Source: Streptomyces sp. TP-A0874
Lineage (GTDB): Bacteria > Actinomycetota > Actinomycetes > Streptomycetales > Streptomycetaceae
NCBI RefSeq assembly: GCF_001748085.1
Contig: NZ_BBZK01000003.1
Span: forward strand, 434,001-498,000
DNA: 64,000 nt
Direction: 5' to 3'
Part shown: positions 9,678 through 41,122 of the stretch, in pieces
Position numbering within the stretch: position 1 is the first letter of the stretch
Layout: the number at the start of each line of letters is the position of its first letter
Notes under the pieces: generated by a model
Told to the model about the DNA's origin: nothing
Seen by the model: the letters and a program-made list of their open reading frames with translations, nothing else
Database searches by the model: none
Position numbers and translations under genes: made by a program

Positions 9678-9777
9678 GGTTGAACGTTATATCCACTGTC
9701 CCGGCTCGCTGCCCGAGGCTCCGGGGGTGCGGGACAATGAGAGGTCCCGTTCCGTTCGCACCCGAGGAAGCACCGCG

Positions 9778-10905
9778 ATGAACCAGCTGCAGATCGGCCC
9801 GCACACCGTATGGCCACCCGTGGTGCTCGCGCCGATGGCCGGGATCACCAACGCCCCGTTCCGGACGCTCTGCCGCGAGTTCAGCGGGGGCAAGGGCCTC
9901 TTCGTCAGCGAGATGATCACCACCCGGGCGCTGGTCGAGCGGGACGCCAAGACGATGCGGCTGATCCACTTCGACGGCACCGAACGGCCGCGCTCGGTGC
10001 AGCTGTACGGGGTCGACCCGGCGACCGTCGGCAAGGCCGTCCGCATGATCGTCGACGAGGGGCTGGCCGACCACATCGACCTGAACTTCGGCTGCCCGGT
10101 GCCCAAGGTGACCCGCAAGGGCGGCGGCTCCGCCCTGCCGTACAAGCGGAACCTGCTCCGCGCGATCCTCCGGGAGGCGGTCTCGGCGGCCGGCGAACTG
10201 CCGGTCACCATGAAGATGCGGAAGGGCATCGACGACACGCACCTGACCTATCTGGACGCCGGCCGGATCGCCGTCGAGGAGGGTGTGACGGCGATCGCCC
10301 TGCACGGCCGGACGGCGGCCCAGCACTACGGCGGTACGGCCGACTGGGAGGCCATCGCCCGGTTGAAGGAGGCGGTACCGGAGATCCCGGTGCTGGGCAA
10401 CGGGGACATCTGGTCGGCCGCGGACGCGGTGCGCATGGTGGAGGAGACCGGGTGCGACGGGGTGGTGGTCGGTCGTGGCTGCCTCGGCAGGCCCTGGCTC
10501 TTCGGGGATCTGGTGGCCGCCTTCGAGGGCGGGGGAGAACCGGCCCGGCCGGCCCTGGGCGAGGTCGCCGTGGTGATGAGCCGCCATGCGCGACTGCTCG
10601 GCGAGTGGTTCTCGGACGAGGCACGTGGTGTCATCGACTTCCGCAAGCATGTGGCCTGGTACACCAAGGGCTTCTCGGTCGGCTCTGAGATGCGTAGGCA
10701 GCTGGCAACCGTCTCATCTCTGGACGAACTGGACGCTCTGATGAGCGGGCTTGATCTGGCGCAGTCATGGCCGGCTGGAGCCGACGGGCCGCGCGGCCGG
10801 ACCGCCGGACGGGATCGGGTGGTCCTCCCGGAGGGCTGGCTCGACGACCCCTACACCTGTAGCGATATCAGTCCTGAGGCGGAGTTGGACACCTCCGGGG
10901 GGTGA
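9778..10905 (+). CDS. dus: tRNA-dihydrouridine synthase (DusB-like)
   Basis: A flavin-dependent enzyme that reduces uridines of the tRNA D-loop, 375 aa. It has the FMN-barrel start VVLAPMAGITNAPFR, the catalytic-Cys block LNFGCPVPKVTRKGGGSAL, the phosphate-binding IALHGRTAAQHY, and GNGDIWSA...GCDGVVVGRGCLGRPW near the end of the barrel, then a helical tRNA-binding domain. ATG 9778 follows GAGGAA at a normal distance. The last ~50 residues are a low-complexity tail. It is divergent from the MFS gene. Confidence 0.93.
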   Translation: MNQLQIGPHTVWPPVVLAPMAGITNAPFRTLCREFSGGKGLFVSEMITTRALVERDAKTMRLIHFDGTERPRSVQLYGVDPATVGKAVRMIVDEGLADHIDLNFGCPVPKVTRKGGGSALPYKRNLLRAILREAVSAAGELPVTMKMRKGIDDTHLTYLDAGRIAVEEGVTAIALHGRTAAQHYGGTADWEAIARLKEAVPEIPVLGNGDIWSAADAVRMVEETGCDGVVVGRGCLGRPWLFGDLVAAFEGGGEPARPALGEVAVVMSRHARLLGEWFSDEARGVIDFRKHVAWYTKGFSVGSEMRRQLATVSSLDELDALMSGLDLAQSWPAGADGPRGRTAGRDRVVLPEGWLDDPYTCSDISPEAELDTSGG

Positions 10906-25896: not shown

Positions 25897-27168
25897 GTGG
25901 TCGACGCCGATCGGACGTTCGTCATTGTCGGGGGAGGGCTGGCGGGCGCGAAAGCCGCTGAGACCTTCCGTTCGGAGGGGTTCACCGGGAGGGTCATCCT
26001 CATCTGCGACGAGCGCGACCACCCCTACGAGCGCCCGCCGCTCTCCAAGGGCTACCTCCTCGGCAACGAGGAGCGGGACAGCGTCTTCGTCCACGACCGT
26101 GCCTGGTACGCCCGGGCCGAGATCGAACTCCACCTCGGCCAGCCCGCGGTCCAGCTCGACCGCGCGGCCAAGGCCGTCGTCCTCGGCGACGGGGCACGGA
26201 TCAACTACGACAAACTGCTGCTCGCCACCGGTGCGGAGCCTCGCCGCCTCGACATCCCCGGCACCGACCTCGCCGGCGTCCACCACCTGCGCCGCCTGGC
26301 ACACGCCGAGCGGCTGCGGGGGGTGCTCGCCTCCCTCGGCCGCGAGAACGGCCATCTGGTCATCGCCGGAGCCGGCTGGATCGGACTGGAGGTGGCCGCC
26401 GCGGCCCGCTCCCACGGCGCCGAGGTGACCATCGTGGAGCCGGGGGCCACCCCGCTGCACTCGGTCCTCGGCCCGGAACTGGGGCAGCTCTTCACCGACC
26501 TGCACCAGGAGCACGGCGTCCGCTTCCGTTTCGGCGCCCGGCTCACCGAGATCATCGGTCAGGACGGCATGGTGCTGGCCGCCCGGACCGACGACGGCGA
26601 GGAGCACCCGGCGCACAGCGTCCTCGCGGCGATCGGCGCCGCCCCGCGGATCGCGCTCGCCGAAGCCGCCGGCCTGACCCTCGCCCGGCGGCCCCCCGGC
26701 GGGATCGCCGTCGACGCCGCACTCCGCACCAGCGACCCGGACATCTTCGCCGCCGGGGACGTGGCCGCCCACGAGCATCCGCTGCTGGACGTCAGGGTCC
26801 GGGTCGAGCACTGGGCGAACGCGCTCAACGGAGGCCCTGCCGCCGCCCGGGCCATGCTCGGCCAGGAGATGGTCTACGACCGTGTGCCCTACTTCTTCTC
26901 CGACCAGTACGACCTGGGCCTGGAGTACTCCGGCTACGCGCCACCCGGCTCCTACGACCAGGTGCTCATCCGCGGCGACACCGGCAAACGGGAGTTCGTG
27001 GCCTTCTGGCTCGCCGACCGAAGGCTGCTGGCCGGTATGAACGTCAACGTCTGGGACGTCACCGACCCCATCCAGCGGTTGATCCGCAGCAAGCGGCGGC
27101 TCGACCCGGAGGCGCTCGCCGACCCGGCCGTGCCGCTGGAGTCGCTGCTCGCCTCCGAGCAGGGGTGA
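25897..27168 (+). CDS. FAD-dependent NAD(P)/ferredoxin reductase
   Basis: A 423-aa flavoprotein of the BphA4/rubredoxin-reductase family. It has the FAD motif FVIVGGGLAGAKAAETFR, the Rossmann motif for NAD(P)H IAGAGWIGLEVAAAARSHGAEV, and AAGDVAAHEHPL near the end. The C-terminal part (LEYSGYAPPGSYDQVLIRGD) is the family's dimerisation/reductase domain. GTG 25897 has GAGGAGG upstream. Its electron acceptor is unknown; it may serve a cytochrome P450 or Rieske system elsewhere. Confidence 0.9.
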   Translation: MVDADRTFVIVGGGLAGAKAAETFRSEGFTGRVILICDERDHPYERPPLSKGYLLGNEERDSVFVHDRAWYARAEIELHLGQPAVQLDRAAKAVVLGDGARINYDKLLLATGAEPRRLDIPGTDLAGVHHLRRLAHAERLRGVLASLGRENGHLVIAGAGWIGLEVAAAARSHGAEVTIVEPGATPLHSVLGPELGQLFTDLHQEHGVRFRFGARLTEIIGQDGMVLAARTDDGEEHPAHSVLAAIGAAPRIALAEAAGLTLARRPPGGIAVDAALRTSDPDIFAAGDVAAHEHPLLDVRVRVEHWANALNGGPAAARAMLGQEMVYDRVPYFFSDQYDLGLEYSGYAPPGSYDQVLIRGDTGKREFVAFWLADRRLLAGMNVNVWDVTDPIQRLIRSKRRLDPEALADPAVPLESLLASEQG

Positions 27169-27202
27169 GGGGAGCGCCGGACCGGGTGTCCGAGGTCCGC
27201 CG

Positions 27203-27208
27203 TAGAAT
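27203..27208 (+). promoter_or_regulatory. -10 hexamer of dnaG
   Basis: TAGAAT, a near-consensus -10, ends 6 nt before GTG 27215. No Shine-Dalgarno follows. It is the clearest leaderless candidate in the window. Confidence 0.55.
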
Positions 27209-27214
27209 CCAGGC

Positions 27215-29122
27215 GTGGCGGGCAGGATCAACGATGACGACGTGAAGGCGGTCCGGGACGCGGTCCCGATCGACGCCGTCGTGTCCGAGTACCTCCAGCT
27301 GCGCAACGCCGGCGGTGGCAACCTCAAGGGGCTGTGCCCCTTCCACGACGAGAAGTCGCCGTCCTTCCAGGTGAGCCCGAGCAAGGGCCTGTTCTACTGC
27401 TTCGGCTGCCAGGAAGGCGGAGACACCCTCGACTTCGTGATGAAGGTCGACCACCTCTCCTTCTCGGAGTCGGTCGAGCGGCTGGCCGCCCAGGCCGGCA
27501 TCACCCTCCGCTACGAACAGGGCGGCTACACACCTGGACGGCAGCAGGGCGAGCGGACCCGGCTGGTGGAGGCGCACCGGATCGCCGCCCAGTTCTACGT
27601 CGAGCAACTGGACGGCGCCGAGGCCGAGATCGGCCGGAAGTTCCTCGCCGAGCGGGGCTTCGACCAGGCCGCCGCGGAGCACTTCGGTGTCGGATACGCC
27701 CCGGCGGGCTGGGACCACCTGGTGCGGTTCCTGCGCGGCCGGGGCTTCACCGACCAGGAGCTGGTCCTCTCCGGTCTGGCCCAGGAAGGCCGCCGCGGCC
27801 CCATCGACCGCTTCCGCGGCCGGCTGATGTGGCCGATCCGCGACATCACCGGCGAAGTCGTCGGCTTCGGCGCCCGGAAGCTGCGGGAGGACGACAACGG
27901 GCCGAAGTACCTCAACACCCCGGAGACCCCGCTCTACCGGAAGTCCCAGGTGCTCTACGGCATCGACCTGGCCAAGCGGGACATCGCCCGGAGCAGCCGG
28001 GCGGTGGTCGTCGAGGGCTACACCGACGTAATGGCCTGCCACCTCGCCGGGGTCACCACCGCCATCGCCACCTGCGGCACGGCCTTCGGCGGCGACCACA
28101 TCAAGATCCTCCGCCGGCTGCTGATGGACAACTCCGGCGCCGAAGTGATCTTCACCTTCGACGGGGACGCCGCCGGGCAGAAGGCCGCCCTGCGGGCCTT
28201 CGAGGACGACCAGAAGTTCGCGGCGGAGACCTCCATCGCCATTACCCCGGGCGGGATGGACCCCTGCGAACTGCGGCTGGCCGAAGGCGACGAGGCCGTC
28301 TCGGCACTGGTCGAGAGCCGTACCCCGCTGTTCGCCTTCGCCATCCGCCAGGTCGTGCAGCGGCACAACCTGGACACCGCGGAGGGCCGGGCCGCCGCGC
28401 TGGAAGCTGCCGCTCCGATCGTCGCCGGGATCAAGAACAGCGCCATCCAGCACGAGTACGCGGTACAGCTGGCCGGGATGCTCGGCATCCTCGACAGCCA
28501 GTTCGTGGTGCGCAGGGTCGGCCAGCTCGCCCGCTGGGCCCGGGAGCGCGGCGGAGCCCGGCCCGGGCGAGCGGTCCCCGGCCGGCTGGCGGGTCAGCCG
28601 GCCGCCAGCCCGGCCGTCGCCGCACCGCAGGCCCCGGGCGGGCCGCGGATCGACCTGCGGAGCCCGGCGCACCGCACCGAGCGCGAGCTGCTCAAGCTCG
28701 CGCTGCAACACCCCGAACTCGTCGCCCCCGCCTTCGACGCCTACGGGGCGGACGAGTTCACCGCCACCCCGTACGCGGGGGTGCGGCGCACCATCGAAGC
28801 GGCCGGCGGGGTGGAGCGGGCCGACGATGAGTACCTCGCCCGGGTCCGGGACGAGGCCCCGGACGACACCGTCCGGGCGTTGATCACCGAACTCGCCGTC
28901 GAGGCGATCCACAGCCGCACCGTCGACGCGGTCTACGCCGGTATGCAACTGGTGCAGGTCCGGCTGCGGGCCGTCGACCGCCGTATCACCGAGGTGCGGG
29001 GCACCCTCCACCGGCTGGGTACCCAGGGCGACCCCGGCCAGCTGGCCGCTGTCCAGCAGGAGCTGTGGGAGCTCCAGCAGTACGGCCAGTCGCTCCGCCA
29101 GCACGGTCCGGACGCGCTGTAG
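27215..29122 (+). CDS. dnaG: DNA primase
   Basis: Makes RNA primers at the replication fork, 635 aa. It has the N-terminal CHC2 zinc finger (CPFHDEKSPSFQV and FYCFGCQEGGD), the catalytic TOPRIM core (EGYTDVMACHLAG and FDGDAAGQKAALRA), and a helicase-binding C-terminal domain after a Pro/Ala-rich linker (about residues 440-480). GTG 27215 is the start. It follows the reductase by 46 bp and lies about 5.4 kb before hrdA, with accessory DNA between. Confidence 0.95.
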   Translation: MAGRINDDDVKAVRDAVPIDAVVSEYLQLRNAGGGNLKGLCPFHDEKSPSFQVSPSKGLFYCFGCQEGGDTLDFVMKVDHLSFSESVERLAAQAGITLRYEQGGYTPGRQQGERTRLVEAHRIAAQFYVEQLDGAEAEIGRKFLAERGFDQAAAEHFGVGYAPAGWDHLVRFLRGRGFTDQELVLSGLAQEGRRGPIDRFRGRLMWPIRDITGEVVGFGARKLREDDNGPKYLNTPETPLYRKSQVLYGIDLAKRDIARSSRAVVVEGYTDVMACHLAGVTTAIATCGTAFGGDHIKILRRLLMDNSGAEVIFTFDGDAAGQKAALRAFEDDQKFAAETSIAITPGGMDPCELRLAEGDEAVSALVESRTPLFAFAIRQVVQRHNLDTAEGRAAALEAAAPIVAGIKNSAIQHEYAVQLAGMLGILDSQFVVRRVGQLARWARERGGARPGRAVPGRLAGQPAASPAVAAPQAPGGPRIDLRSPAHRTERELLKLALQHPELVAPAFDAYGADEFTATPYAGVRRTIEAAGGVERADDEYLARVRDEAPDDTVRALITELAVEAIHSRTVDAVYAGMQLVQVRLRAVDRRITEVRGTLHRLGTQGDPGQLAAVQQELWELQQYGQSLRQHGPDAL

Positions 29123-29180
29123 GAGACGGGGCGGCACAACGGGACACGGGACAGTCGGCCTCAGCGAGGAGTACATCGAG

Positions 29181-29615
29181 ATGCGTGCTTGGACCCTGCC
29201 GATATCGTTCGCGGCTTGCGGTGCCCTCCTCGCGGCCGTACTGGCCGCCGGGGGAGACCTCGGCGGCGCCGTTCCCCTGCTGCTGGGCTTCCTCCTGCTC
29301 GGTGTGGTCCACTCGCCGCTGGTGTTCCCGCGATCGATCGGGGCGGCGGAGGCAGAACGACGCAGCGCCGACGACGGCCGGCCGATCGTCTACTGGCGGG
29401 CGGGCTGCAAGTACTGCCTGCGGCTGCGTCTCCGGTTGGGGCGGAGCGCCCGTCGGCTGCACTGGGTCGACATCTGGCGCGACCCGGACGGGGCGGCGGC
29501 GGTGCGGGCGGCCAACAACGGCGACGAGACCGTGCCGACCGTGCTGATGGCCGGGCAACCGCACGCCAACCCCGACCCCGCCTGGGTGCGCGCACAGCTC
29601 CCGCCGGCTGGCTGA
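29181..29615 (+). CDS. Membrane-anchored glutaredoxin-like protein
   Basis: A 144-aa protein with two N-terminal hydrophobic helices (SFAACGALLAAVLAAGGDLGGAVPLLLG...) and a C-terminal thioredoxin-fold domain. The redox motif is CKYC in VYWRAGCKYCLRLRLRLG, with ETVPTVLMAG as the cis-Pro strand. It is similar to mycoredoxin/glutaredoxin, which in actinobacteria reduces mycothiol mixed disulfides. ATG 29181 follows GAGGAG. The membrane anchor is uncommon for this family and suggests work at the membrane. Confidence 0.75.
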   Translation: MRAWTLPISFAACGALLAAVLAAGGDLGGAVPLLLGFLLLGVVHSPLVFPRSIGAAEAERRSADDGRPIVYWRAGCKYCLRLRLRLGRSARRLHWVDIWRDPDGAAAVRAANNGDETVPTVLMAGQPHANPDPAWVRAQLPPAG

Positions 29616-29683
29616 CCGAGCGCTGCCCACCCCGGGCCCCGCAGGCTTCGGCCGGCGGTTCCCAGCGTGCCTTCGGGGCGGTC

Positions 29684-30219
29684 GCCACTCCGACTCGTCC
29701 GGCCAGTCGCTCAGGGAGCGCTGTCCGAGACAGATCACTGCGACCTGCACGTTGTCGACCTGGGCGCGGTTCAGCGCGGCGCGGGCTTCGCCGGCTACGA
29801 CAGGCGATGCGTCGACCGTGGTGACCTCGGCTCCGGTGATGTGGGCGATCAGGGCCGCGTGCCAGCCGGTGCCGGCCCCGATTTCCAGGACCTGCATGCC
29901 GGGCGTCAGTCCGGCGGCTTCGAGCATTTTGGCGACGATGGACGGCTGGGAGGTGCTGGAGTAGCCGCCGGCCGGGCCGGTGGGGTGCGCGTCATGATGC
30001 CCCGGTCGGCGTAGGCGAGTTGGAGGAGATCGGCGTCTGGCCGCACGGGGGTCGACGGCTGTGTGCCGTCCAGTGGCGTAGTGCCCGGAGAGGAACAGGT
30101 GCCGCGGCACACTCGCGATGGCTTCCGCCACACTCTCCGAGTGCAGCGCTCCCTTCTCGCGGAGCGTCTGGGCGAGCCTCTGGGCGAGTGGTGCCCAGTC
30201 GGTGGGAATGGTGATTCAC
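29684..30219 (-). pseudogene. Decayed lasso-peptide isoaspartyl (PIMT-like) methyltransferase
   Basis: The frame from 30215 (ITIPTDWAPLAQRLAQTLREK) has no ATG or GTG until codon 30131, because the likely GTG 30219, overlapping the protease stop, is out of frame. After SVPRHLFLSGHYATG the sequence is out of frame for 60 nt: the true PIMT segment (DADLLQLAYADRGIMTR) is read in another frame at 29987-30046. It is then back in frame at SSTSQPSIVAKMLEAAGL and VLEIGAGTGWHAAL, the SAM motif I. Homology stops near 29690, so the C-terminal half is lost. Position after the protease fits the A-C-B1-B2-M order of aspartimide lasso clusters. Confidence 0.7.
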
Positions 30220-30638
30220 AGCGGGTCGGCCTCCTGGAACTGGTAACGGGTGATGGGGACGTAGAGAAGACGGGGATCGGTCGGTTCGGCTGCGGGCTGC
30301 CGGTCCGCTTCCAGCCAGGCGTGCACCTGTGCGGTGCCGGGCCGCATTTCGAGCACCAGACTGGGGGAGTGGCCGTGGGCACGGCAGTACAGCAGTGCGG
30401 CCAGGCAGGCGGTGATCCCGGCCAGCCGGATCGATGCGGTACAGACCGCGAGGACCGCGGCCTCCGTCTCGGCCAGGGTGGAGGGTCGGTCTGCGGAGCG
30501 CTGCGCCCAGTGCACCGCGTGCTCGACCCGCCGGGCACTGGGCGGGAGTCGAGTGGCGACAAGACTGCAGGCCCGGGCCAGCGCGTGTTCGCGGCGGGTG
30601 AGCGAGGTACGGGGCGGCAGCGCGACCGTGAAGCTCAC
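30216..30638 (-). CDS. Lasso peptide leader protease, B2 type (possibly damaged)
   Basis: A transglutaminase-fold leader peptidase of 140 aa that removes the leader during lasso-peptide maturation. The region around GITACLAALLYCRAHGHSP is the usual active-site Cys helix, and VHAWLEADRQP carries the catalytic His. In typical members four or five more residues, with an Arg-Ser pair, separate the Cys from the CR motif; they appear missing here. GTG 30638 is 5 bp past the RRE stop. It may be inactive. Confidence 0.7.
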   Translation of the reverse strand: MSFTVALPPRTSLTRREHALARACSLVATRLPPSARRVEHAVHWAQRSADRPSTLAETEAAVLAVCTASIRLAGITACLAALLYCRAHGHSPSLVLEMRPGTAQVHAWLEADRQPAAEPTDPRLLYVPITRYQFQEADPL

Positions 30639-30642
30639 CCGG

Positions 30643-30894
30643 TCACCATTCCTTCTTTTGAAGGCTGGCCAGCAGCGCGTCGAGGTCGACGCGGATCCTC
30701 TCGATCGGCACTTCGGGACAGGCCCGGACGAGGGCGTCTTCCGCGTCCGCGGCGGTGCCGCCATCAGCTACGACGCTCAGAGCGATGGCGGCTGACGGGT
30801 TCAGCGTCACGACGCGGCCGTCCGCCGTGATCAGGGTGCCCCATCCGGTCGATCGGTCGGTCAGGACGCGGGCGCCGGGGGTCAGGGTCAGCAT
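30643..30894 (-). CDS. Lasso peptide RRE (PqqD-like recognition) protein, B1 type
   Basis: An 83-aa PqqD-like protein that binds the leader of the precursor peptide and delivers it to the protease. The sequence has the family pattern RVLTDRSTGWGTLITADGR, LNPSAAIALSVVADGGT and a C-terminal helix (RIRVDLDALLASLQKKEW). ATG 30894 follows GGAGG at a good distance. This gene looks intact, unlike its neighbours. It overlaps no frame of the cyclase. Confidence 0.8.
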   Translation of the reverse strand: MLTLTPGARVLTDRSTGWGTLITADGRVVTLNPSAAIALSVVADGGTAADAEDALVRACPEVPIERIRVDLDALLASLQKKEW

Positions 30895-30925
30895 GGTGCC
30901 TCCGTCAGCGTTGAGCTCCGTCAAT

Positions 30926-32249
30926 TCAACGGATTGGGGCAGGGCGGTGGTGGATGGTGCGGGCGAAGATTTCGCACATGACGGTCAGGTGCAGCATCAG
31001 ATCCGTGCGCGCATCGATCCGCTGGTCCCACCGTGCTACCGCGACGGCTATCGCGAGGGGATCGACCAGTCACGCTCTCCTCCCCCAGCAACTGGGCGAG
31101 GACGGGCCGGTGGCGCTCGAGGGCCCGATCGGTATCCGCGTTGTAGCCGCCTTTGGTACGGCGGTTGAGATTGCCGTCCGGCACGATGCCGCGCATCGCT
31201 TCGCTCAGCAGGGGCTTGAGCCGGTAGGGGCTGATCCGCTGCTCGGCACGGCAGCGCAGCGCGGCCTCGATCACCTGGAAGTCGGTGTAGGGGTAGCCGA
31301 GTTTTAGGCCGGACCAGGCGGCGAGGTCGGCCTGGATCCGGTTGCAGCGGGCGATCGCCCGTAGGCTGACCATGGTGGTGTGCTGGTGCGCTCGCTCGTG
31401 TAGCGGGGAGCCGGCCGCCGCCGCAGCGGCGGCGAGTTCCTCGGCGAGTGCATCGCGAACCGGTGCGGTGAGCCAGGGTGGCACGTGCGGGCCGGATTCC
31501 CACCCGACCGCTGGGAGACCCTGAGAGCACAGGGCCGTCAGCCACTGCCGGTACGGGCCCGGATGGGCTGCCTGGTGTCGAATGTCCTTGCGGGAGACAC
31601 CCCAGAGCGCGGCCCATCCCGCCAGATGCTTCCGGGCGATCTGGGGGTCGCGCCGGCGAGCGTGCGCCAGATACGACAGCGGAGACATCAGCAACTCGTC
31701 CGCGCCCTTGCCTGACAGGAGCACTCTGGCGCCCGTGCCCGCGGTATGCCGCCACCAGGCGGTCTGCCGATCCGGGCTGGCGGCCGCCGGGCTGGGAGCA
31801 TCGAGAAAAGCCGATGCGCCTTTCTCCAGCCCGGCGAATTGTGACGGAAACTGTCCCAGCTCAACCAGCAGGTGCCGGGCACCCGCCTGAGCAGCGACGG
31901 CGGACCGGGCCCACCCCGCATCGTCGTTGCCCGGATCGGCAGGAACCCGGGTCAGGTTGACGAGCCGACTCCCGACCTGCCGGTAGTCGATCGCGGACAG
32001 GGTGGTGCTGTCAGCACCCCCGGACAACTCGCACGCCACATGCCGCTCTCCCCGCGTACGAACGCCGACCGCCTCCACCAGCGTCTCGCGAAAAGCCGCG
32101 GAGGCCTCGGGCAGCTCGAGTTCGTCGTCGGGCACCGACCACCACGGACACACCGAAATACGCCCGTCTGAGCCGAGGCGGACCGCCGAGCCCGGCTGTA
32201 CCGCCCGTACCCCCACGTAGGGGGTCGCGCCTGACGGGCGGCTGGTCAC
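30926..32249 (-). pseudogene. Decayed lasso peptide cyclase (asparagine-synthetase-like)
   Basis: The enzyme that would adenylate the Asp/Glu side chain and close the macrolactam ring. The PP-loop SGGADSTTLSAIDY and later SGKGADELLMSPL, YPYTDFQVIEA and RTKGGYNADT are present, matching the C-terminal asparagine-synthetase domain. The frame opens at GTG 32249 with ATPYVGVRAVQPGSAVRLG and lacks the N-terminal ~200-residue glutaminase-like domain and any ribosome site. Near 31068-31080 a frameshift separates it from its natural end (LVDPLAIAVAVARWDQRID ... LMLHLTVMCEIFARTIHH), whose stop is at 30926-30928. Confidence 0.75.
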
Positions 32250-32272
32250 AAGGGGCAGAACGGATCAAGCGC

Positions 32273-32380
32273 TCACGCCGCACCGGCGCTGACTGGCCGA
32301 CGCGGGGCGATCACCCGCCCATCAGGCAGCACTTCACCCATGTCGTCGAAGAGGATGACCCCGTTACAAACATGCTCCTT
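32273..32380 (-). pseudogene. C-terminal fragment of a DUF5999-family protein
   Basis: HVCNGVILFDDMGEVLPDGR, followed by VIAPRRPVSAGAA and TGA at 32273-32275, matches the end of DUF5999, a short Streptomyces protein whose full form begins with a Cys-rich region. An in-frame TGA lies just upstream of ~32390, so only the last third is left. It directly precedes the truncated cyclase frame. Confidence 0.6.
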
Positions 32381-32484
32381 CTCTGCACTTCACTCGATCG
32401 AAGGTCGCTGGGGACCTGAGCGACGGGAGAGCGTCCGGCTTGGCCCCTGGCATGCGTTTCTCGCGGGTGGCACGATGAACGCCA

Positions 32485-33210
32485 ATGGATGATCAAGGAA
32501 CTCTGGCTGCTCAGGCTCTGCGTTTGGTCACGACCCGTTTCCCGGATGCGCTGGGGGCGGTTCTGGGGGGATCGGTTGCCCAGGGCCGTGCCACTGAGAC
32601 CAGCGACTTGGATGTGGCCGTCCTCCTGCCGGACTCGGATATCAGCCGCCGTGAGGTAGTACGCCATGAGGGCCGCCTGGCCGAGCTGTTCCTGAATACC
32701 GTTGCCGACATACCGGAATTCTTCGAGTGGGACAGAGCTCGCCGCCGCGGCACGGTCCTGTTCATCTATGACCAGGGCCTGCCGTTGTTGGACCCGCGCG
32801 GCGATCTCTCCCGTGTGCGTAAACAGGCCCAAGCGGTCCTCGCGGCTGGTCCGCCGCCGCTCACGCCGGCGGAGTGGGAACGAAGCCGCTACGGCCTGAC
32901 CTGCTTCATGGACGACCTGGTCGATACTCCGCCCGCCAACCGGTACGAACAGCTTTCCCTCGCCGACTTCACTCTGCGAGAGGCGGCACACCTGCTCACT
33001 GCCTACCACGGTGCCTGGACGGGCATCGGCAAGTGGTTGCCTCGGAGGCTGCTGAGCGCGGACCCGGTCCGGGGAAAGACGCTGTTGGACGGCCAGCTGG
33101 CCTTGGCGGAACAGGCCGATCCCGTTCCACTGGCGACTGCGGTTGAGGGGGTACTCGACCTGCTCGGCGGACCGCTGAGAGAAGGGTATGCGCATCGCTG
33201 GCGCACCTGA
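32485..33210 (+). CDS. Nucleotidyltransferase-domain protein
   Basis: A 241-aa protein. GGSVAQGRATETSDLDVAVL is a GSX10DXD Pol-beta nucleotidyltransferase motif with its catalytic Asp pair, and a third acidic residue is plausible in GTVLFIYDQGLPLLD. The C-terminal half is helical. Related small proteins include MntA-type antitoxins and aminoglycoside adenylyltransferases, but I see neither a HEPN toxin partner nor an assured drug-binding domain. It is on the opposite strand to the lasso remnant. Confidence 0.65.
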   Translation: MDDQGTLAAQALRLVTTRFPDALGAVLGGSVAQGRATETSDLDVAVLLPDSDISRREVVRHEGRLAELFLNTVADIPEFFEWDRARRRGTVLFIYDQGLPLLDPRGDLSRVRKQAQAVLAAGPPPLTPAEWERSRYGLTCFMDDLVDTPPANRYEQLSLADFTLREAAHLLTAYHGAWTGIGKWLPRRLLSADPVRGKTLLDGQLALAEQADPVPLATAVEGVLDLLGGPLREGYAHRWRT

Positions 33211-33257
33211 CCTGCTTCTTCCTTGTCTGCGCTCACTCGACCGTGGTTCGTTGGGGA

Positions 33258-33658
33258 TCACTGGATCTGCTCTGGTCGTGGGCGTGGGATGCCGAGGTCG
33301 GTGGTTGGTCTCTTGGTGAGGCGGGCGGCTTCGGCCTGTTTGGCGCGGAGGAAGGTCAGGGTCGAGTCGATGCCCTCGACCTCGCCGATCCAGTGCTCAC
33401 CTGGGCCCGCTTGCGGCGCAGGAGCAGGTTCTTTTCGATCTCCGCGAGGCGGGGCAGCAACTTGGGGTTGACCTGGAGTATCGGGCAGCGGATGCAGGCG
33501 TGTTCGTGGTTGCAGGGGATGCCGTAGGGGCGTGCGCAGTTGGGGTCTGTGTAGCGACGAGAATCTTCGGTGGAACATCCTGTGATCTGGCAGTGGGCAT
33601 CGGCGAGTTCCATGCGTCGTCGGTCCTGGGCGAGGATTACCTGGCGCGAGATGCCGGC
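33258..33658 (-). pseudogene. C-terminal stub of an integrase, frameshifted
   Basis: ELADAHCQITGCSTEDSRRY, then CARPYGIPCNHEHACIRCP and LPRLAEIEKNLLLRRKRAQ, read from ~33658 to 33403; this is the tail of large actinobacterial tyrosine integrases (the conserved CxHEHACIRC region). Near 33405 the homology shifts frame to GPGEHWIGEVEGIDSTLTFL, ending at 33258. The catalytic domain is absent. It marks an old integrated element. Confidence 0.65.
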
Positions 33659-33807
33659 CCGGCTGAAGGCCGTGCGCGAGGCAGCCGGTGGCGCGCTCAA
33701 CGAACTCGGTCGCGCAACGTAACCCGCGGAGGGACGGTGGAGGCGAGGACGCGGCACGTGTCCTGGACCTTTTGGCGGGGGCGGAGACGACACCGGGGAA
33801 GGTTCCG

Positions 33808-34176
33808 TTATGAGACCGGCGCCCCATCGGGCAGGGCGTAACCCCTCTCCTCGTCCCAAGGGATGTCGATGTCGTCCATGCGCACCCGCCACTCGGCGTT
33901 CGGCAGGACTCGGCGCAGCCGCGTCACGGAGTCGAGTAGATGACCGATCACCGGCATGAGCCGGTCGTACGTACTGGGCATCCTGGTGGACCCGGCCAGT
34001 ATCCCGTCGGGGTTGCTGCCGCCGTCCTCGTAGAGGTAGAGGTTCTCCTCGTCCTCGTCCTCGTCCTCGTACGGGAAGGTTGCCTGGCGGTCGGCGGCGA
34101 TGCGATCGATGTCGGCTGCCTCGGTGGTTGTCAGGTGCGTCGCCCGGGACGCGCAGTAGTAGAGGGACACGCTCAT
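33808..34176 (-). CDS. Acidic conserved hypothetical protein
   Basis: A 122-aa protein starting MSVSLYYCASRATHLTTTEA, with an Asp/Glu-rich run YEDEDEDEENLYLYEDGG and a C-terminal NAEWRVRMDDIDIPWDEERG. It is known only as a streptomycete hypothetical in my judgement, with no assigned function. TACGCT (34188-34183) ends 6 nt before the ATG with no Shine-Dalgarno, so it may be leaderless. Confidence 0.6.
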   Translation of the reverse strand: MSVSLYYCASRATHLTTTEAADIDRIAADRQATFPYEDEDEDEENLYLYEDGGSNPDGILAGSTRMPSTYDRLMPVIGHLLDSVTRLRRVLPNAEWRVRMDDIDIPWDEERGYALPDGAPVS

Positions 34177-34536
34177 GCGCTGAGCGTAGGAACGACCTCT
34201 GACAACGCTTCCGGAGTCGAAGTCACTGGGCGCCCGTTCAGTTGCTGAGGTCGGCCGTCCCGGCTCGTCGTCCCTCCTCTTGGGGCCCGCGGGCGGGAGA
34301 GGCAGCAACGGTGGCGTTCGTAGAAACCGGACGCACACCTCTCGTGGGCGGGGCGTGTCGTGGCCCACACTGGTCTGCGGTGCCCGATTCCGCACACGCC
34401 CGGCGGAGCCGGGCGAAACCGGCCGTAACCCTCACCGCTCGCGCGCGGTCGCGGCGCGGTGGCCGTCCACCAGCCGCAGCCGCCGCGCCGACACCTCCCG
34501 TCCCTCGCCCGGCAGCGATCACCAGGAGGTCGCCCC
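34177..34536. other. 360-bp divergent region before hrdA
   Basis: No gene is seen. It holds the leaderless-type -10 for the minus-strand gene at 33808 (34183-34188) and presumably the hrdA promoter, which I cannot place. AGGAGG at 34524-34529 is the hrdA ribosome site. Confidence 0.5.
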
Positions 34537-35742
34537 GTGCAGACCCAGGCCACCAGCCCCGATCCGACCGGCGCCGTGACCGTGCCGGCACCCCGCTCCC
34601 GGCCCGTCCACCACCAGCCAGAGAGGCGGGGACCGTCCCCCACCGCCGTGGCCGTTCCCCGGCAGGCGGCGCTGCCGACCACCCCCGAGGCTCGGCCGGC
34701 GTCCGCCCAACGGGCCGAGGCACCGACCGCCGTGCAGCTCTCCGCCGAACCGTCGGTGCTTCCTTCGCCTCCCGCCGAGGAGAGCGCCGCGGAGGACGAC
34801 CCCAGGCGCCCGGGGCAGCGGGACGGGAACGGTCCCACCGCGGACCTGTTCCGCCAGTACCTGCGCGAGATCGGCCGGATCCGGCTGCTGAGCGCCGCCG
34901 AGGAGGTGGAGTTCGCCCGACGTATCGAGGCCGGCCTGTTCGCCGAGGAGAGACTGCTCCGCTCCACCGTGGCGGACCCGCAACTCGCCGTCGACCTCCA
35001 GCGGTTGGCCGCCCTCGGCCGGCAGGCCAAACGCCTTCTCATCGAGGCCAACCTGCGGCTGGTCATCTCCGTCGCCAAGCGCTACACCGGACGCGGGCTC
35101 ACCATGCTCGACCTGGTCCAGGAGGGAAACCTCGGCCTGATCCGCGCGGTCGAGAAGTTCGACTACACCCGCGGCTACAAGTTCTCCACGTACGCCACCT
35201 GGTGGATCCGCCAGGCCATGTCGCGGGCGCTGGCCGACCAGGCCCGGACCATCCGGGTGCCGGTCCATGTGGTGGAGCAGATCAACCGGGTGCTGCGGGT
35301 CCAGCGCCGGCTGCTCCAGGAGCGCGGATACCAGCCGGGGCCCGAGGAGGTCGCCGGTCAGCTCGGCCTGACCGGCGAGCGGGTCAGTGAGGTGCTCTCC
35401 CTCGCCCGGGAACCGATCTCCCTGCACACCCCGATAGGGGAGGAGGAGGACGCCGCCCTCGGCGACCTCATCCAGGACGACGACGCGCCCGCGCCCGCCG
35501 AGTGCGCGGCCTTCTCGCTGCTCCGCGGCCATCTCGACGCCGTGCTGTGCACGCTCGGCGAGCGGGAGCGCGAGGTCATCCGGCTCCGCTACGGCCTCGT
35601 CGACGGCCGTCCCCGCACCCTGGAGGAGATCGGCAGCCTCTTCGGGGTCACCAGGGAGCGCATCCGCCAGATCGAGTCGAAGACGCTCAGCAAGTTGCGC
35701 GGCCACGCCTTCGCCGAACAGCTCCGGGGCTACCTCGACTGA
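34537..35742 (+). CDS. hrdA: RNA polymerase principal-type sigma factor HrdA
   Basis: A sigma-70 group 1/2 factor of 401 aa. Region 1.2 is [16 protein letters not shown], region 2 has [20 protein letters not shown] and [12 protein letters not shown], region 3 follows, and region 4 contains [20 protein letters not shown], the -35-recognition helix-turn-helix. About 90 residues of Pro/Ala/Gln-rich, poorly conserved sequence precede region 1.2. GTG 34537 follows AGGAGG. The symbol hrdA is taken from proximity to dnaG as in S. coelicolor; HrdB/HrdD are possible. Alternative principal sigma factors are non-essential in streptomycetes. Confidence 0.85.
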
Positions 35743-35790
35743 ACCCGCCCCCGGGACGCCGGGCCGGTGTCCCAAGGCGTCGGGGCGCGG

Positions 35791-35823
35791 CGGGCCGGTC
35801 GGCCGACCTCGGCGACCGGCCCG
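35791..35823. terminator. Hairpin between hrdA and the ABC exporter
   Basis: cgggccggtcg (35791-35801) pairs with cgaccggcccg (35813-35823), loop 11 nt, between convergent genes. Confidence 0.6.
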
Positions 35824-35830
35824 GACGCGC

Positions 35831-37798
35831 TCAGTCGACCTCGGCGACCGCCTCCGCGAACTGTGCGGCGTACAGACGCGCGTACGGTCCGCCCGCGGCC
35901 AGCAGCGACTCGTGGTCGCCCTGCTCCACGATCGAGCCCGACTCCATCACCAGGATCACGTCGGCGTCCCGGATGGTCGACAGCCGGTGGGCGATGACGA
36001 AGCTCGTCCGACCGTGGCTCAGTTGGGCCATCGCCCGCTGGATGAGGACCTCGGTGCGGGTGTCGACCGAGCTGGTCGCCTCGTCCAGGACCAGGATCAC
36101 CGGGTCGGAGAGGAACGCCCGAGCGATGGTGATCAGCTGTTTCTCGCCGGCGCTCACCCCGGTGCCCTCGTCGTCGAGCACCGTGTCGTAGCCGTCGGGC
36201 AGGGTGCGGACGAAGCGGTCCGCGTGCGCGGCGCGGGCCGCCTCCTCCACCTGCTCCCGGGTCGCGTTCCGGGCGCCGTAGGCGATGTTCTCCGCGATGG
36301 TGCCGCCGAACAACCAGGTGTCCTGGAGCACCATGCCGATGCGGGAGCGCAGCTGCTCCCGCGGTATCGAGGCGATGTCCGTGCCGTCCAGCAGGAGCCG
36401 CCCGCCGGTCGGTTCGTAGAACCGCATCAGCAGGTTGACCAGGGTGGTCTTACCGGCGCCGGTGGGTCCGACGATCGCCACCGTCTGACCCGGCTCGACG
36501 GCGAGCGAGAGGTCCTCGATCAGCGGCTTCTCCGGCTCGTAGCGGAACGACAGCTTCTCGATGGTGACCCGCCCGGTCGGTTCGGTGCTGACCCCCGAGG
36601 GCGCGTCCGGCTCCTGCTCCTCGGCGTCCAGCAGCTCGAACACCCGCTCCGCCGAGGCGACCCCGGACTGCACCAGGTTGGCCATGCTCGCCACCTGCGA
36701 GAGCGGCTGGCTGAACTGCCGCGAGTACTGGATGAAGGCCTGTACGTCGCCGATCGACAGCGATCCGCTGGCCACCCGCAGTCCGCCGATGACCGCCACC
36801 AGCACGTAGTTGAGGTTGCCGATGAACATCATCGCCGGCTGGATGATCCCGCTGAGGAACTGCGCTCGGAAGCTCGACCGGTAGAGCGCCTCGTTCTCCT
36901 CGCGGAAGACCGCCGCGGACTCCTCCTGGCGGCCGAAGACCTTCACCAGGCTGTGGCCGGTGTACATCTCCTCCACGTGGGCGTTGAGCGTGCCGGTGGT
37001 CCTCCACTGTTCGACGAACTGCGGCTGGGACCGCTTCCCGATCCTGGTCGCGACGACCACCGAGACCGGCACGGTGACCAGCGCGACCAGCGCCAGCAGC
37101 GGCGATATCCAGAACATCATCGCCAGCACGCCGACGATCATGAGCAGTGAGTTGATCACCTGCCCCATGGTCTGCTGCAGCGTCTGGGTGAGGTTGTCGA
37201 TGTCGTTCGTCGCCCTGCTCAGCACCTCGCCGCGGGGCTGCCGGTCGAAGTAGGAGAGCGGCAGCCGGGACAGCTTCGCCTCGATGTCCTCACGCAGCCG
37301 GTAGACGGTGCGGTTGATGGCGAGCGCGGCGAGCCGGCCCTGGGCGACGCCGGCCGCGCCGGCGACCGCGTAGAGCGCCAGCGCCGTCAGCAGCACCGTG
37401 CCCACGGCCCCGAAGTCGATGCCGTGGCCGGGGGTGAAGTCCATCGCCGCGAGCATGTCCGCGATGTCGCCGTGGCCGGAGTCGCGGGCGTTCTCGACGG
37501 CCTGCTCCTTGCTGACGCCCGCGGGCAGCTGCCGCCCGACGACGCCGGCGAAGATCAGGTCGGTGGCGTGTCCCAGGATCTTCGGGCCCAGCACGGAGAG
37601 CGCGACGCTCACCGTGGTGAGCGCCAGCACCGCGTACAGCAGCAGCCGTTCGGGGCGCAGCCGGCCCAGCAGCCGGAGCCCGGACTGGCGGAAGTCCATG
37701 GACTGCTCGGCCGGGCCGCCCATGAGCCGGCCGGGGCCGCCCTGCGGCGCGGGGCCCCGGCGCGGGGCCGCCGGAGCGGTCTTCTGCGGAGTGCTCAT
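35831..37798 (-). CDS. ABC exporter half, TMD-NBD fusion (consensus NBD)
   Basis: A multidrug-type ABC half-transporter of 655 aa. Six helices and intracellular loops come first (start near residue 45), then an NBD from ~400. Walker A is GPTGAGKTT, Walker B with catalytic Glu is VILVLDEATSS, and the switch His is in FVIAHRLST; the signature reads VSAGEKQ, which departs from LSGGQ. Its ATG overlaps the stop of the upstream partner (ATGA). It is the second half of a heterodimeric exporter. Confidence 0.92.
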   Translation of the reverse strand: MSTPQKTAPAAPRRGPAPQGGPGRLMGGPAEQSMDFRQSGLRLLGRLRPERLLLYAVLALTTVSVALSVLGPKILGHATDLIFAGVVGRQLPAGVSKEQAVENARDSGHGDIADMLAAMDFTPGHGIDFGAVGTVLLTALALYAVAGAAGVAQGRLAALAINRTVYRLREDIEAKLSRLPLSYFDRQPRGEVLSRATNDIDNLTQTLQQTMGQVINSLLMIVGVLAMMFWISPLLALVALVTVPVSVVVATRIGKRSQPQFVEQWRTTGTLNAHVEEMYTGHSLVKVFGRQEESAAVFREENEALYRSSFRAQFLSGIIQPAMMFIGNLNYVLVAVIGGLRVASGSLSIGDVQAFIQYSRQFSQPLSQVASMANLVQSGVASAERVFELLDAEEQEPDAPSGVSTEPTGRVTIEKLSFRYEPEKPLIEDLSLAVEPGQTVAIVGPTGAGKTTLVNLLMRFYEPTGGRLLLDGTDIASIPREQLRSRIGMVLQDTWLFGGTIAENIAYGARNATREQVEEAARAAHADRFVRTLPDGYDTVLDDEGTGVSAGEKQLITIARAFLSDPVILVLDEATSSVDTRTEVLIQRAMAQLSHGRTSFVIAHRLSTIRDADVILVMESGSIVEQGDHESLLAAGGPYARLYAAQFAEAVAEVD

Positions 37799-39549
37799 GC
37801 GGCGGCCTCCCGCTCGGTCAGCTGCGAGAGCACGATCTCGCGGTAGGTGTCGTTGTCCAACATCAGTTCCTGATGGGTTCCGGTGCCCACCACCCGGCCC
37901 TCGTCGAGGACCACGATGCGGTCGGCACCCCGGATGGTGCTCACCCGCTGGGCGACGATGACCACCGTCGCCTCGGCGGTCTCCCGGGCCAGCGCGGCTC
38001 GCAGCGCCGCGTCCGTCGAGTAGTCCAGGGCCGAGAAGGAGTCGTCGAAGAGGTAGATCTCCGGCCGCCGCACCAGCGCCCGGGCGATGGCGAGCCGCTG
38101 CCGCTGGCCGCCTGAGACGTTGCCACCGCCCTGCGCGATCGGCGCGTCGAGTCCGGAACCGACCTCGCCCTCCACACCGAGCCGCTCGACGAACCCCTTG
38201 GCCTGCGCGATCTCCAGGGCGTGCCAGAGATCCTCGTCGGTGGCGTCGGGGTTGCCGTAGCGCAGGTTGGAGGCGACGGTTCCGGAGAAGAGGTAGGGCT
38301 TCTGCGGCACCAGGCCTATGGTGCGGGCGAGCAGCGCCGGATCCAGCCGCCGGACGTCCACCCCGCCCACCAGCACCTGCCCGGCGGTCACGTCCATCAG
38401 CCGTGGCACCAAGTCGAGCAGGGTCGTCTTGCCGCTGCCGGTGGAGCCGATGATCGCGGTGGTCTCGCCGGGCCGGGCGACGAGGTCGACGTCCCGCAGC
38501 ACGTCCTCCTCCGCCCCGGGGTAGCGGAATCCGGCGCCGCGGAGTTCGAGGTGGCCGTGGCGCTCCAGCTTCCGCACCGGGGCGGTCGGCGGCTCCACGC
38601 TGGTCTCGGTGGTCAGCACCTCCTGGATGCGCTCGGCGGCGACCTCGGCCCTCGGCACCATCATGAACATGAAGGTCGCCATCATCACGGACATCAGGAT
38701 CTGCATCAGGTAGGCGAGGAAGGCGGTGAGCGCGCCGATCTGCATGCCGCCGCTGTCGATGCGCTGGGCGCCGAACCACAGCACCGCCACCCCGGCGACG
38801 TTCACCACCGTCATCACGGCGGGGAACATCATCGCCATCAGCCGGCCGGTGCTCAGTGAGACCTCGGTCAGTTCGGCGTTGGCCCGGTCGAAGCGCTCCC
38901 GCTCGTAGTCGTCCTTGACGAAGGCCCGGATGACCCGGATGCCGGTGATCTGCTCCCGCAGCACCCGGTTGACGGTGTCCAGCCGCTGCTGCTGGGTGCG
39001 GAAGAGCGGTCGCATCCGGCGGGCCAGCAGCATCACCAGGACGCCCAGCACCGGCACCACCGCGAGCAGCAGGGAGGAGAGCGGCACGTCCTGGCCGAGC
39101 GCCATCACGATCCCGCCGACGCACATGATCGGCGCCATCACCATGAGGGTGAACGACAGCAGCACCAGCATCTGGACCTGCTGGACGTCGTTGGTGGTCC
39201 GGGTGATCAGCGAGGGTGCTCCGAAGTGCCCCAGCTCGCGGGCGGAGAAGGTCTGCACCCGGTCGAATACGGAGGCGCGGACGTCCCTGCCCAGCGCCAT
39301 CGCGGTGCGGGCGCCGAAGTAGACCGCCCCCACCGAGCAGCAGATCTGCGCCAGCGTCACCGTGATCATGACGCCGCCCAGCTGGAGGATGACCTTGGTG
39401 TCGCCGGTGACGACACCCCGGTCGATGATGTCGGCGTTGAGCGTGGGCAGGTAGAGGGCGGCCAGCGTCTGCACGAGCTGGAGCAGCAGGATCAACGAGA
39501 TGGGTCTGCGGTAGGGCGGCAGATGGGAGCGGAGCAGTCTGATCAGCAC
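37795..39549 (-). CDS. ABC exporter half, TMD-NBD fusion (degenerate NBD)
   Basis: The partner half of the exporter, 584 aa. It has six helices and an NBD with Walker A GSTGSGKTT and signature VSGGQRQR, but Walker B reads IYLFDDSFSALD, with Asp in place of the catalytic Glu, and the switch residue is Gln in VIVAQRVST. Thus it supplies a canonical signature and a degenerate catalytic site, as TM287- and BmrC-type subunits do. GTG 39549 is the chosen start; upstream frame is open but not conserved. It is first in the operon. Confidence 0.92.
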   Translation of the reverse strand: MLIRLLRSHLPPYRRPISLILLLQLVQTLAALYLPTLNADIIDRGVVTGDTKVILQLGGVMITVTLAQICCSVGAVYFGARTAMALGRDVRASVFDRVQTFSARELGHFGAPSLITRTTNDVQQVQMLVLLSFTLMVMAPIMCVGGIVMALGQDVPLSSLLLAVVPVLGVLVMLLARRMRPLFRTQQQRLDTVNRVLREQITGIRVIRAFVKDDYERERFDRANAELTEVSLSTGRLMAMMFPAVMTVVNVAGVAVLWFGAQRIDSGGMQIGALTAFLAYLMQILMSVMMATFMFMMVPRAEVAAERIQEVLTTETSVEPPTAPVRKLERHGHLELRGAGFRYPGAEEDVLRDVDLVARPGETTAIIGSTGSGKTTLLDLVPRLMDVTAGQVLVGGVDVRRLDPALLARTIGLVPQKPYLFSGTVASNLRYGNPDATDEDLWHALEIAQAKGFVERLGVEGEVGSGLDAPIAQGGGNVSGGQRQRLAIARALVRRPEIYLFDDSFSALDYSTDAALRAALARETAEATVVIVAQRVSTIRGADRIVVLDEGRVVGTGTHQELMLDNDTYREIVLSQLTEREAAA

Positions 39550-39895
39550 GGGAGTCTCTCGATGCAGCGGGGAAGGCGGAGCCGCGAGCGGCGCGATCGA
39601 ACGGCTGTCCATCTTCCGGCAAGGGCTCGGCGGCTTCCTCAAGGCGCGGTAAAAGTGTTTTCGCGCTCGGCGGAACACCGTCACCCGGAAGAAGACAGCG
39701 CTTAACCCTAAAGGCTGGACCTGCCCGAAGCACGACGATTTAACGACCGTGCCGGACCGGGACGGCCTCGGAGGGGCACGGTACGGCCGGACGCGCCTGC
39801 ACACCGGGGCGGACCGCCCGTTGCGAGGGACGGACCGCCCGGAGTTCCGGAACCGCTCATCCGCGGGAGACCGGCCCACCGAAGAAGGGGCAGTG
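39550..39895. other. Divergent promoter region, ABC exporter/MFS
   Basis: About 345 bp without a convincing gene. cgcttaaccctaaagg (39698-39713) is locally AT-rich and may hold promoter elements. I see no clear operator. Confidence 0.4.
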
Positions 39896-41122
39896 ATGGC
39901 GACGGCACCTCCGGCGACATGGCGCAGGGTCGCCGTGGTCGCGGCGCTCATGCTGGCCGCGTTCAGCTTCAACACCACCGAAAACCTCCCCATCGGGCTG
40001 CTCCGGCTCATCTCCGCCGATCTCGGCGTCTCCCCCTCCGGCGTCGGCTACCTCGTCACCGGATACGGCGTCACCGTCGCCGTGGTGTCACTACCGCTCG
40101 CCCACCTGACCCGGTCGCTGCCGCGCCGCCACCTGCTGACGGTGCTGCTCGCCGCGCTGGCGCTGGCGAGCTGGGTCTCCGCGCTGGGCCCGTCGTACGG
40201 GCTGCTGCTGGGAGCGCGCATCGTCACGGCGGTCGCCCAGGCGCTGTTCTGGGCGGTCATGGGGCCGGTGGCGGTGGGGCTGTTCCCGCCCGAGGTGCGT
40301 GGCCGGGTGATCGGTGCGCTGTCGTTCGGCGGCTCCCTGGCGACGGTGGCGGGCGTCCCCGCCGGCACCTGGCTGGGGCAGCACGAGAGCTGGCAGGCGC
40401 CCTTCCTGCTGCTCGGCGTCCTCGGCGTCGTCTCGCTCGTGCTGATCGCCGGTCTGCTGCCGACCTCGCGCCCCGAGGAGGGGCACGCCGCGTTCGGCGC
40501 GGCACCCGACAGGCGGCGCTTCGGCATCGTGCTGGCCACCACGGCCCTCTCGGTCACCGGCGCGTTCGCGGGATTCACCTACGTGGTCGAGTTCCTGGAC
40601 GAGGTGTCCGGGTTCTCCCGCGAGTGGACCGGTGGCCTGCTGGCGGTCTTCGGGGCCGCCGGAGTGGTGGGCGTGACCGTCACCGGGCCGCTGCTGGACC
40701 GGTTCCCCCGGGCGACCCTGACGGTGCCGGTGGCGGCCCAGGCGGTCGCGCTTCTGGTGATGTCCGGTGCGGGCACGCGACAGGCCGTCACCGTCGCGAT
40801 GCTGGCGCTCCTGGGCTCCGCGGTGGGCCCGGTGTTCATGGCCACCCAGAACCGTGTGCTCCGGGTCGCCCCGGGACGGACGGAGATGGCGCTGGCGGCC
40901 AACTCGGCGGCGTTCAACGCGGGGATCGCGGCCGGCGCGCTGCTCGGCGGCGCCGCGCTGCCCGCAGTGCACGTCCGCGGCACCTTCCTGCTCGGCGGCC
41001 TGCTGACCGTCGCCGCGCTCGGTGTGCTGCTCAGCGAGTGGCGGCTGCCTCCCGCTGCCCTGCCCGACGCCCACAAGGCCGACCCGCCCGCCGTGCGAAC
41101 CGGGGCCGCGGAGGGGGCGTGA
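39896..41122 (+). CDS. MFS transporter (DHA1-like)
   Basis: A 12-helix major facilitator protein of about 408 aa. The first helix has FSFNTTENLPIGLLRLIS; the loop 2-3 region (LTRSLPRRHLLT) and helix 5 motif AGVPAGTWLG support the AraJ/drug H+ antiporter-1 group. ATG 39896 follows GAAGAAGGGG. Substrate is unknown. It converges with xylB. Confidence 0.88.
   Translation: MATAPPATWRRVAVVAALMLAAFSFNTTENLPIGLLRLISADLGVSPSGVGYLVTGYGVTVAVVSLPLAHLTRSLPRRHLLTVLLAALALASWVSALGPSYGLLLGARIVTAVAQALFWAVMGPVAVGLFPPEVRGRVIGALSFGGSLATVAGVPAGTWLGQHESWQAPFLLLGVLGVVSLVLIAGLLPTSRPEEGHAAFGAAPDRRRFGIVLATTALSVTGAFAGFTYVVEFLDEVSGFSREWTGGLLAVFGAAGVVGVTVTGPLLDRFPRATLTVPVAAQAVALLVMSGAGTRQAVTVAMLALLGSAVGPVFMATQNRVLRVAPGRTEMALAANSAAFNAGIAAGALLGGAALPAVHVRGTFLLGGLLTVAALGVLLSEWRLPPAALPDAHKADPPAVRTGAAEGA

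Follow-up and report, generated by a model that had tools for sequence, protein, structure and literature searches.

We analysed a window of 64,000 nucleotides from the 5.1 Mb draft genome (18 contigs) of Streptomyces sp. TP-A0874, corresponding to positions 434001–498000 of contig C3, in which we found the remains of a lasso peptide biosynthetic cluster, referred to here as the relic. On the minus strand at 29742–32264, four genes follow one another in the order lasso cyclase (C), RRE (B1, PqqD-like), leader peptidase B2 and a methyltransferase (M) resembling protein-L-isoaspartate O-methyltransferase (PIMT). In tblastn comparisons all four were 57–60% identical to an intact cluster of Streptomyces endocoffeicus CA3R110 (NZ_JAERRG010000014.1; locus L024). 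The main in-frame stretch of the cyclase (31059–32264, minus strand) matched residues 161–559 of the 614-residue L024 cyclase with 57% identity over 402 residues (E 1e-131), and a C-terminal stretch followed in a different frame (30929–31069, minus strand; E 8e-11, the alignment crossing a stop). RRE (30643–30894, minus strand) and B2 (30216–30638, minus strand) form open frames of 83 and 140 aa, with 57% identity over 79 residues (E 3e-21) and 59% over 140 residues (E 6e-46), respectively. The methyltransferase (29742–30215, minus strand) showed 60% identity over 158 residues (E 2e-48), and a second piece of it was matched in another frame (E 5e-4). A preliminary description, made from the letters of the sequence, had already named these genes, their order and their strand, all of which was borne out by tblastn and by the translated frames. 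The two motifs that it had spelled out in letters were also found: the PP-loop SGGADST, or SGGADSTTL in its longer form, is kept in the cyclase, and VLEIGAGTGW is present in the methyltransferase.

Pfam recognised all four genes above the respective cut-offs, with 110.8 bits for the cyclase (PF00733; cut-off 21), 32.8 for RRE (PF05402, PqqD; 23.4), 29.4 for B2 (PF13471; 26) and 50.9 for the methyltransferase (PF01135, PCMT; 20.3). The NCBIfam lasso B2 model NF033537 likewise scored above its cut-off (39.8 versus 33 bits). The C-terminal cyclase stretch alone had no NCBIfam match, and B2 had no match among solved structures at E 0.01; the solved structures matching the methyltransferase were all named protein-L-isoaspartate O-methyltransferase.

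We next compared the four genes with their counterparts in L024 and in two further relatives from the same genus, L028 (genome G414) and L029 (G373). Recognisable cyclase sequence starts at residue 161 of 614, the first ∼160 residues being gone, and the frame changes near 31.07 kb. A possible scrap of the N-terminal domain lies in yet another frame (32276–32389, minus strand), assigned by its place in the order and by eye; the match is weak, as the scrap gave no BLAST hit, and its 38 residues were equalled or outscored in 65 of 2000 shuffles when compared with L024 and in 701 of 2000 when compared with L028. In the methyltransferase, a start codon is lacking at the place where its relatives begin, its middle is out of frame, and its likeness to them ends after residue 158 of 386, so that the N-terminal 158 residues remain and the C-terminal domain is gone. 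The missing half was not found elsewhere, as a search of the genome with the L024 PIMT returned no match besides the relic. In B2, the four residues directly after the cysteine are absent (ACL----AALLYC versus ACLPRSVAALLYC in L024); at this site, CLPRS is found in L024 and L028, and CLSRS in L029. Two of the four genes, those for the cyclase and the methyltransferase, are thus plainly broken, B2 is suspect as a possible third because of the four residues missing after its cysteine, and RRE looks intact. The earlier statement that at least three of the four are broken therefore holds for the cyclase and methyltransferase and possibly for B2, and is somewhat too strong, as the frames of RRE and B2 are open.

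In agreement with the preliminary description, no precursor match was found beside the relic. A model built from four related precursors, which could miss an unlike precursor, likewise detected none in the genome: of 154 candidates, 150 were scored, and the best reached E 2.1 and contained a stop. Remains transposed to another site were considered and rejected, as own-genome searches for PIMT and precursor found nothing besides the relic.

To place the relic, we examined its relatives. A contig scan with the relic cyclase returned two loci, that of S. endocoffeicus at 58% identity and a Gordonia locus (L025; residues 328–430 at 34%), the latter unconfirmed by the L024 cyclase probe and with a precursor-probe match of E 0.002. 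In the genus, at least three of 392 genomes matched the cyclase at E 1e-60 or better (TP-A0874 itself, G414 and G373), as judged from the best candidates per genome (the best 4 of 28 in TP-A0874). L024 and L028 are intact, carry a precursor gene and share the order precursor, cyclase, RRE, B2, PIMT. A divergent gene upstream of the precursor, possibly a regulator, was seen in both (L024 5789–7162 and L028 7427–8815; 60–61% identical); it had no Pfam family over the cut-off and no match in the window. At L029 (6443–9727), the cyclase has lost its first ∼208 residues and no match to a precursor was found nearby, and RRE, B2 and PIMT matched almost full length in a single piece. Damage is thus seen in two of the four closest loci found, the relic and L029. 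Further lasso loci with a PIMT were found in genomes G035 (L039), G014 (L040) and G327 (L051), whose PIMTs are 42–45% identical to that of L024, and two lasso loci, L042 and L043, gave partial PIMT matches (35–38% to the L024 PIMT). Across the genus, five of 392 genomes matched the precursor model at E 1e-4; G414, G035 and G014 had supplied rows of the model, G327 was new, and G402 (L052) was a marginal hit with no PIMT match. The same model matched none of 396 genomes drawn from the phylum, which shows little because the draw held no genome known to match. Plasmid copies were rejected as a source of close relatives: 26 of 72,556 plasmid records matched the cyclase, all under 60% identity, and the top-ranked one at 34.7%.

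The genome of TP-A0874 holds a second lasso cluster on contig C5 (L030, 530001–548000), with an open cyclase frame (8381–10177; C5:538864) and RRE and B2 matches, as in the relic. Unlike the relic, it has no PIMT match and a different candidate precursor (MVIKAVYETPEFSAAGSFREATGLVVAVAADWNAPGWF), its cyclase is only 34% identical, and it falls outside the clade of the relic cyclase, among cyclases that have no PIMT match in the stretch examined (∼4 kb for most).

As the precursor of the relic is gone, the group of its own product is not directly readable, and we turned to the precursors of its relatives. Lasso leaders carry the pattern Y-x2-P...G, and the acidic core residue that closes the ring stands at position 7–9. 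Cutting leader from core by this pattern gave the cores GSYSEGQQDDGDYHTTKWHA for L024 and GSYSTGQSDDGDYHTVKWQ for L028, and those of L039, L040 and L051 begin GDVSVGQSDDSDAGQYYAP. The four aligned precursors share G1, S4, G6, Q7, D9, D10 and D12 of the core. Ring closure in the relatives is likely at Asp9, which in L024 and L028 would leave two conserved aspartates, D10 and D12, after the ring-closing residue. The excerpted text of a 2026 review (PMC13001092) divides lasso clusters with a PIMT into two groups: in group 1, which includes lihuanodin and cellulonodin-2, the modified Asp lies in a D(T/S)AD motif at core positions 6–9, whereas in group 2 it is predicted to lie in the loop. The two characterised aspartimidylated lasso peptides listed there both belong to group 1, and an earlier paper counts 67 lasso clusters in two such groups (PMC10787088). 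The D(T/S)AD ring motif was absent from the five group-2-type precursors of the relatives. Upstream of their cyclases, L042 (4861–4983; core GKYAEDSADQGKYFE) and L043 (on the reverse strand; core GKYAEDSSDQGRYFE) carry a D-S-(A/S)-D ring motif of group-1 type, L043 with Ser where the published motif has Ala. Lasso PIMTs are described in the review excerpt as having a WxxxGxP motif in common (PMC13001092). We found it in five of five group-2-type methyltransferases scanned (L051 being left out) and in L042, and not in L043; in group 2 it belongs to the extra C-terminal domain that the relic has lost.

In a cyclase tree of 21 rows, the window grouped with L024, L028 and L029 (100/100 support), a clade of which L029 has no precursor. 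L042 and L043 formed a separate pair, also at 100/100; the lihuanodin and cellulonodin-2 clusters themselves are absent from this tree. With its out-of-frame middle masked, the PIMT fragment was 56–57% identical to the PIMTs of L024, L028 and L029 and 45–48% to those of L039, L040 and L051. Overall, cores, tree and methyltransferases suggest that the relatives of the window fit group 2 and not the group of lihuanodin and cellulonodin-2.

No exporter lies within the insert that holds the relic (see below), as the preliminary description had said of the neighbourhood at large; however, two ABC-transporter-like frames, named by eye and matching each other, are present at 35831–40011, beyond the sigma-factor gene. 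A one-protein ABC probe had no match in L024 (17 kb), L029 (20 kb), L040 or L051 (16 kb each), and matched ∼6 kb away in L028 and ∼10 kb away in G373 (L041). At L039, an ABC-transporter-like match (3866–4543) lies ∼0.8 kb past the methyltransferase of this group-2-type cluster, as a possible exporter. Some relatives may thus have an adjacent exporter, and its lack beside the relic says little because the probe was also blank in four of the relatives' loci.

The relic lies in ∼5.3 kb (29123–34458) that we read as an insert between two conserved genes on the plus strand. The left flank (27215–29122), which we take to be dnaG by homology, is an open frame with 80–83% protein identity in seven relatives, nearly full length in one piece, and the right flank (34459–35742) is an open frame named by eye as a sigma-factor gene (72–79% protein identity in the same seven). 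From the end of dnaG to the first matched sigma residue, on the same strand, these seven relatives, chosen as best-scoring for the dnaG region, all have 245–724 bp, compared with ∼5.5–5.7 kb in the window. For the dnaG region, 84% was the highest identity in other genomes among the matches listed (own genome apart; 373 of 392 genomes scored). Besides the relic, the insert holds a redoxin-like gene, which had no match in the seven dnaG loci, a nucleotidyltransferase gene and what is left of a site-specific integrase. The latter is a C-terminal fragment (33359–33640, minus strand) within broken frames at 33261–33892, and its residues 26–80 are 82% identical to a Streptomyces plasmid protein annotated as site-specific integrase; Pfam and PHROGs gave nothing for the broken frames at 33.3–33.9 kb. 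The fragment is likely left over from a mobile element with which the insert arrived. GC content drops to 0.66–0.67 at 32.0–34.0 kb, over the nucleotidyltransferase and integrase part. None of L024, L028 and L029 had a dnaG or sigma-gene match within 17–20 kb (17 kb for L024), a further difference from the relic. Two other ideas about the site were discarded. Insertion at a tRNA gene found no support, as ARAGORN placed two tRNAs at 43 kb but detected no tRNA in 27–36 kb or in the dnaG loci of the seven relatives, and a toxin–antitoxin role for the gene at 32485–33210 was dropped because its match to the MntA antitoxin model reached just 30 of 60 bits. A 31-nt direct repeat (81%) was also noticed, with one copy at the 3′ end of dnaG (29080–29110) and the other just past the last recognisable PIMT residue (29697–29727); the pair might mark an insertion end or might be chance.

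Taken together, we consider it highly probable that the relic once encoded the biosynthesis of a group-2 aspartimidylated lasso peptide (lassimiditide) and has since decayed. In its ancestor, a precursor gene would probably have preceded the cyclase, RRE, B2 and PIMT genes, in the arrangement seen in L024 and L028. By analogy with characterised relatives, RRE would hold the leader and B2 would cut it off, and the cyclase would form a bond between the Gly1 amine and the carboxylate of a side chain, most likely that of Asp9, around the threaded tail. The PIMT homologue would then methylate an Asp in the loop, which would close to an aspartimide. Asp10 is the better candidate, as it is followed by Gly or Ser, whereas Asp12 is followed by Tyr or Ala. 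According to the excerpted text of PMC9266682, the lasso PIMTs known so far modify the peptide once it is threaded. The cluster probably came with a mobile insert that entered between dnaG and the sigma-factor gene. It would then have lost the precursor gene, a quarter of the cyclase gene at the 5′ end and half of the methyltransferase gene at the 3′ end, and its frames would have been broken. That it was brought in, whether or not in a single event, and then dismantled is most likely the course of events. Given the gene losses and frame breaks, the peptide can no longer be made. The earlier proposal that this lineage once had such a cluster agrees with this: judging from what is left of the lasso genes and the PIMT homologue, a functional copy was probably present in an ancestor, although no precursor was found.

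Several observations weigh against this interpretation. The window itself has no precursor, and in the cyclase tree the two group-2-type branches, that of L024 and that of L039, L040 and L051, are each solid, whereas their union is not resolved. In the profile search of the four frames that the preliminary description had proposed as a check, Pfam covered all four and NCBIfam recognised B2, but the NCBIfam models for lasso cyclase (NF033561, 178 of 300 bits; NF033535, 48 of 525) and lasso RRE (NF033530, 38 of 70) stayed below cut-off. With regard to decay, the frames of RRE and B2 are still open, and third-position GC in the cyclase, RRE and B2 stretches is 0.81–0.84, compared with 0.82–0.90 in the intact L024 genes. 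With regard to foreign origin, the GC content of the lasso genes (∼0.69–0.72) is close to that of the flanks (0.69–0.75), so that base composition gives no mark of the relic as foreign. In the cyclase tree, the branch leading to the window measures 0.39, which equals the distance between L024 and the fork that the two have in common (0.22 + 0.17); together with a third-position GC near that of intact genes, this suggests that the decay is recent.

We therefore weighed other explanations. The preliminary description had assigned the relic to the lihuanodin/cellulonodin-2 type, that is, to group 1 with the ring motif D(T/S)AD. Those clusters also combine a lasso cyclase with RRE, B2 and a PIMT homologue, and the window has no precursor of its own to decide the matter. 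However, the nearest intact precursors, those of L024 and L028, lack D(T/S)AD and have conserved aspartates after position 9, as expected of group 2, and L042 and L043, the two loci that do have a DS(A/S)D motif, stand far from the window in the cyclase tree, with PIMTs that match the relic fragment over just 55–60 residues at 40–45% identity. This assignment is thus not supported by the relatives, and we regard a group-1 origin as very unlikely.

Even less credible is an intact cluster in which the breaks are errors of the assembly. The genome is indeed a draft of 18 contigs, RRE and B2 are open, and codon-position GC is largely kept; yet both ends of the cluster are gone, there are several separate breaks, and neither the precursor nor the C-terminal half of the PIMT turned up elsewhere in the genome. 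Moreover, no N occurs in 27000–36000 and the frames of dnaG, the redoxin-like gene, the nucleotidyltransferase gene and the sigma-factor gene around the relic are all open, which makes an assembly error unlikely. Just as little can be said for RRE and B2 being kept by selection to serve in trans for the lasso cluster on contig C5. Their open frames beside broken neighbours and the presence of a second lasso cyclase would agree with such a role, but L030 has RRE and B2 matches of its own, B2 of the relic lacks four residues beside its cysteine, and frames of such small size may escape disruption by chance when decay is recent. A decayed group-2 cluster thus remains the reading that we favour.

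Compared with published systems, the relic resembles the group-2 lassimiditide clusters in having a lasso cyclase, RRE, B2 and a PIMT homologue, as far as the excerpts of PMC10787088 and PMC13001092 describe them, and its intact relatives share with these clusters an Asp conserved after the likely ring closure and a C-terminal WxxxGxP in the PIMT. It differs from them in that the precursor, the N-terminal quarter of the cyclase and the C-terminal domain of the PIMT are gone and frames are broken. With lihuanodin and cellulonodin-2 it has in common the lasso enzymes and an Asp-methylating PIMT homologue, whereas their modified Asp6 lies in the ring within D(T/S)AD (PMC13001092, in excerpt), a motif missing in the relatives of the relic, and the D-S-(A/S)-D loci have cyclases distant from its own. 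A literature search on lasso peptide pseudogenes with a methyltransferase in Streptomyces returned nothing on such a relic by title and start of abstract, and a search for the term lassimiditide returned no paper besides the review PMC13001092.

A more far-reaching idea, which we put forward tentatively and with considerable doubt, is that the relic and its relatives represent an unstudied lasso branch with the core G-x-x-S-x-G-Q-x-D-D-[GS]-D. In such peptides, the ring-closing Asp9 would stand beside an aspartimide at Asp10, placing the reactive imide where the tail leaves the ring, and the clusters would be spread by mobile inserts and repeatedly lost.

The relic belongs to a known kind of cluster and has decayed, and its group-2 product is a worthwhile lead. 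For the organism, the case looks like the gain of a lasso cluster within a small insert, followed by its dismantling. For the family, the relic serves as a pointer to intact clusters with group-2-type cores, in S. endocoffeicus and in genome G414 of the same genus. These intact relatives suggest a branch of lasso clusters with a PIMT that has received little study, and they would show if an imide can form in the loop and not in the ring.

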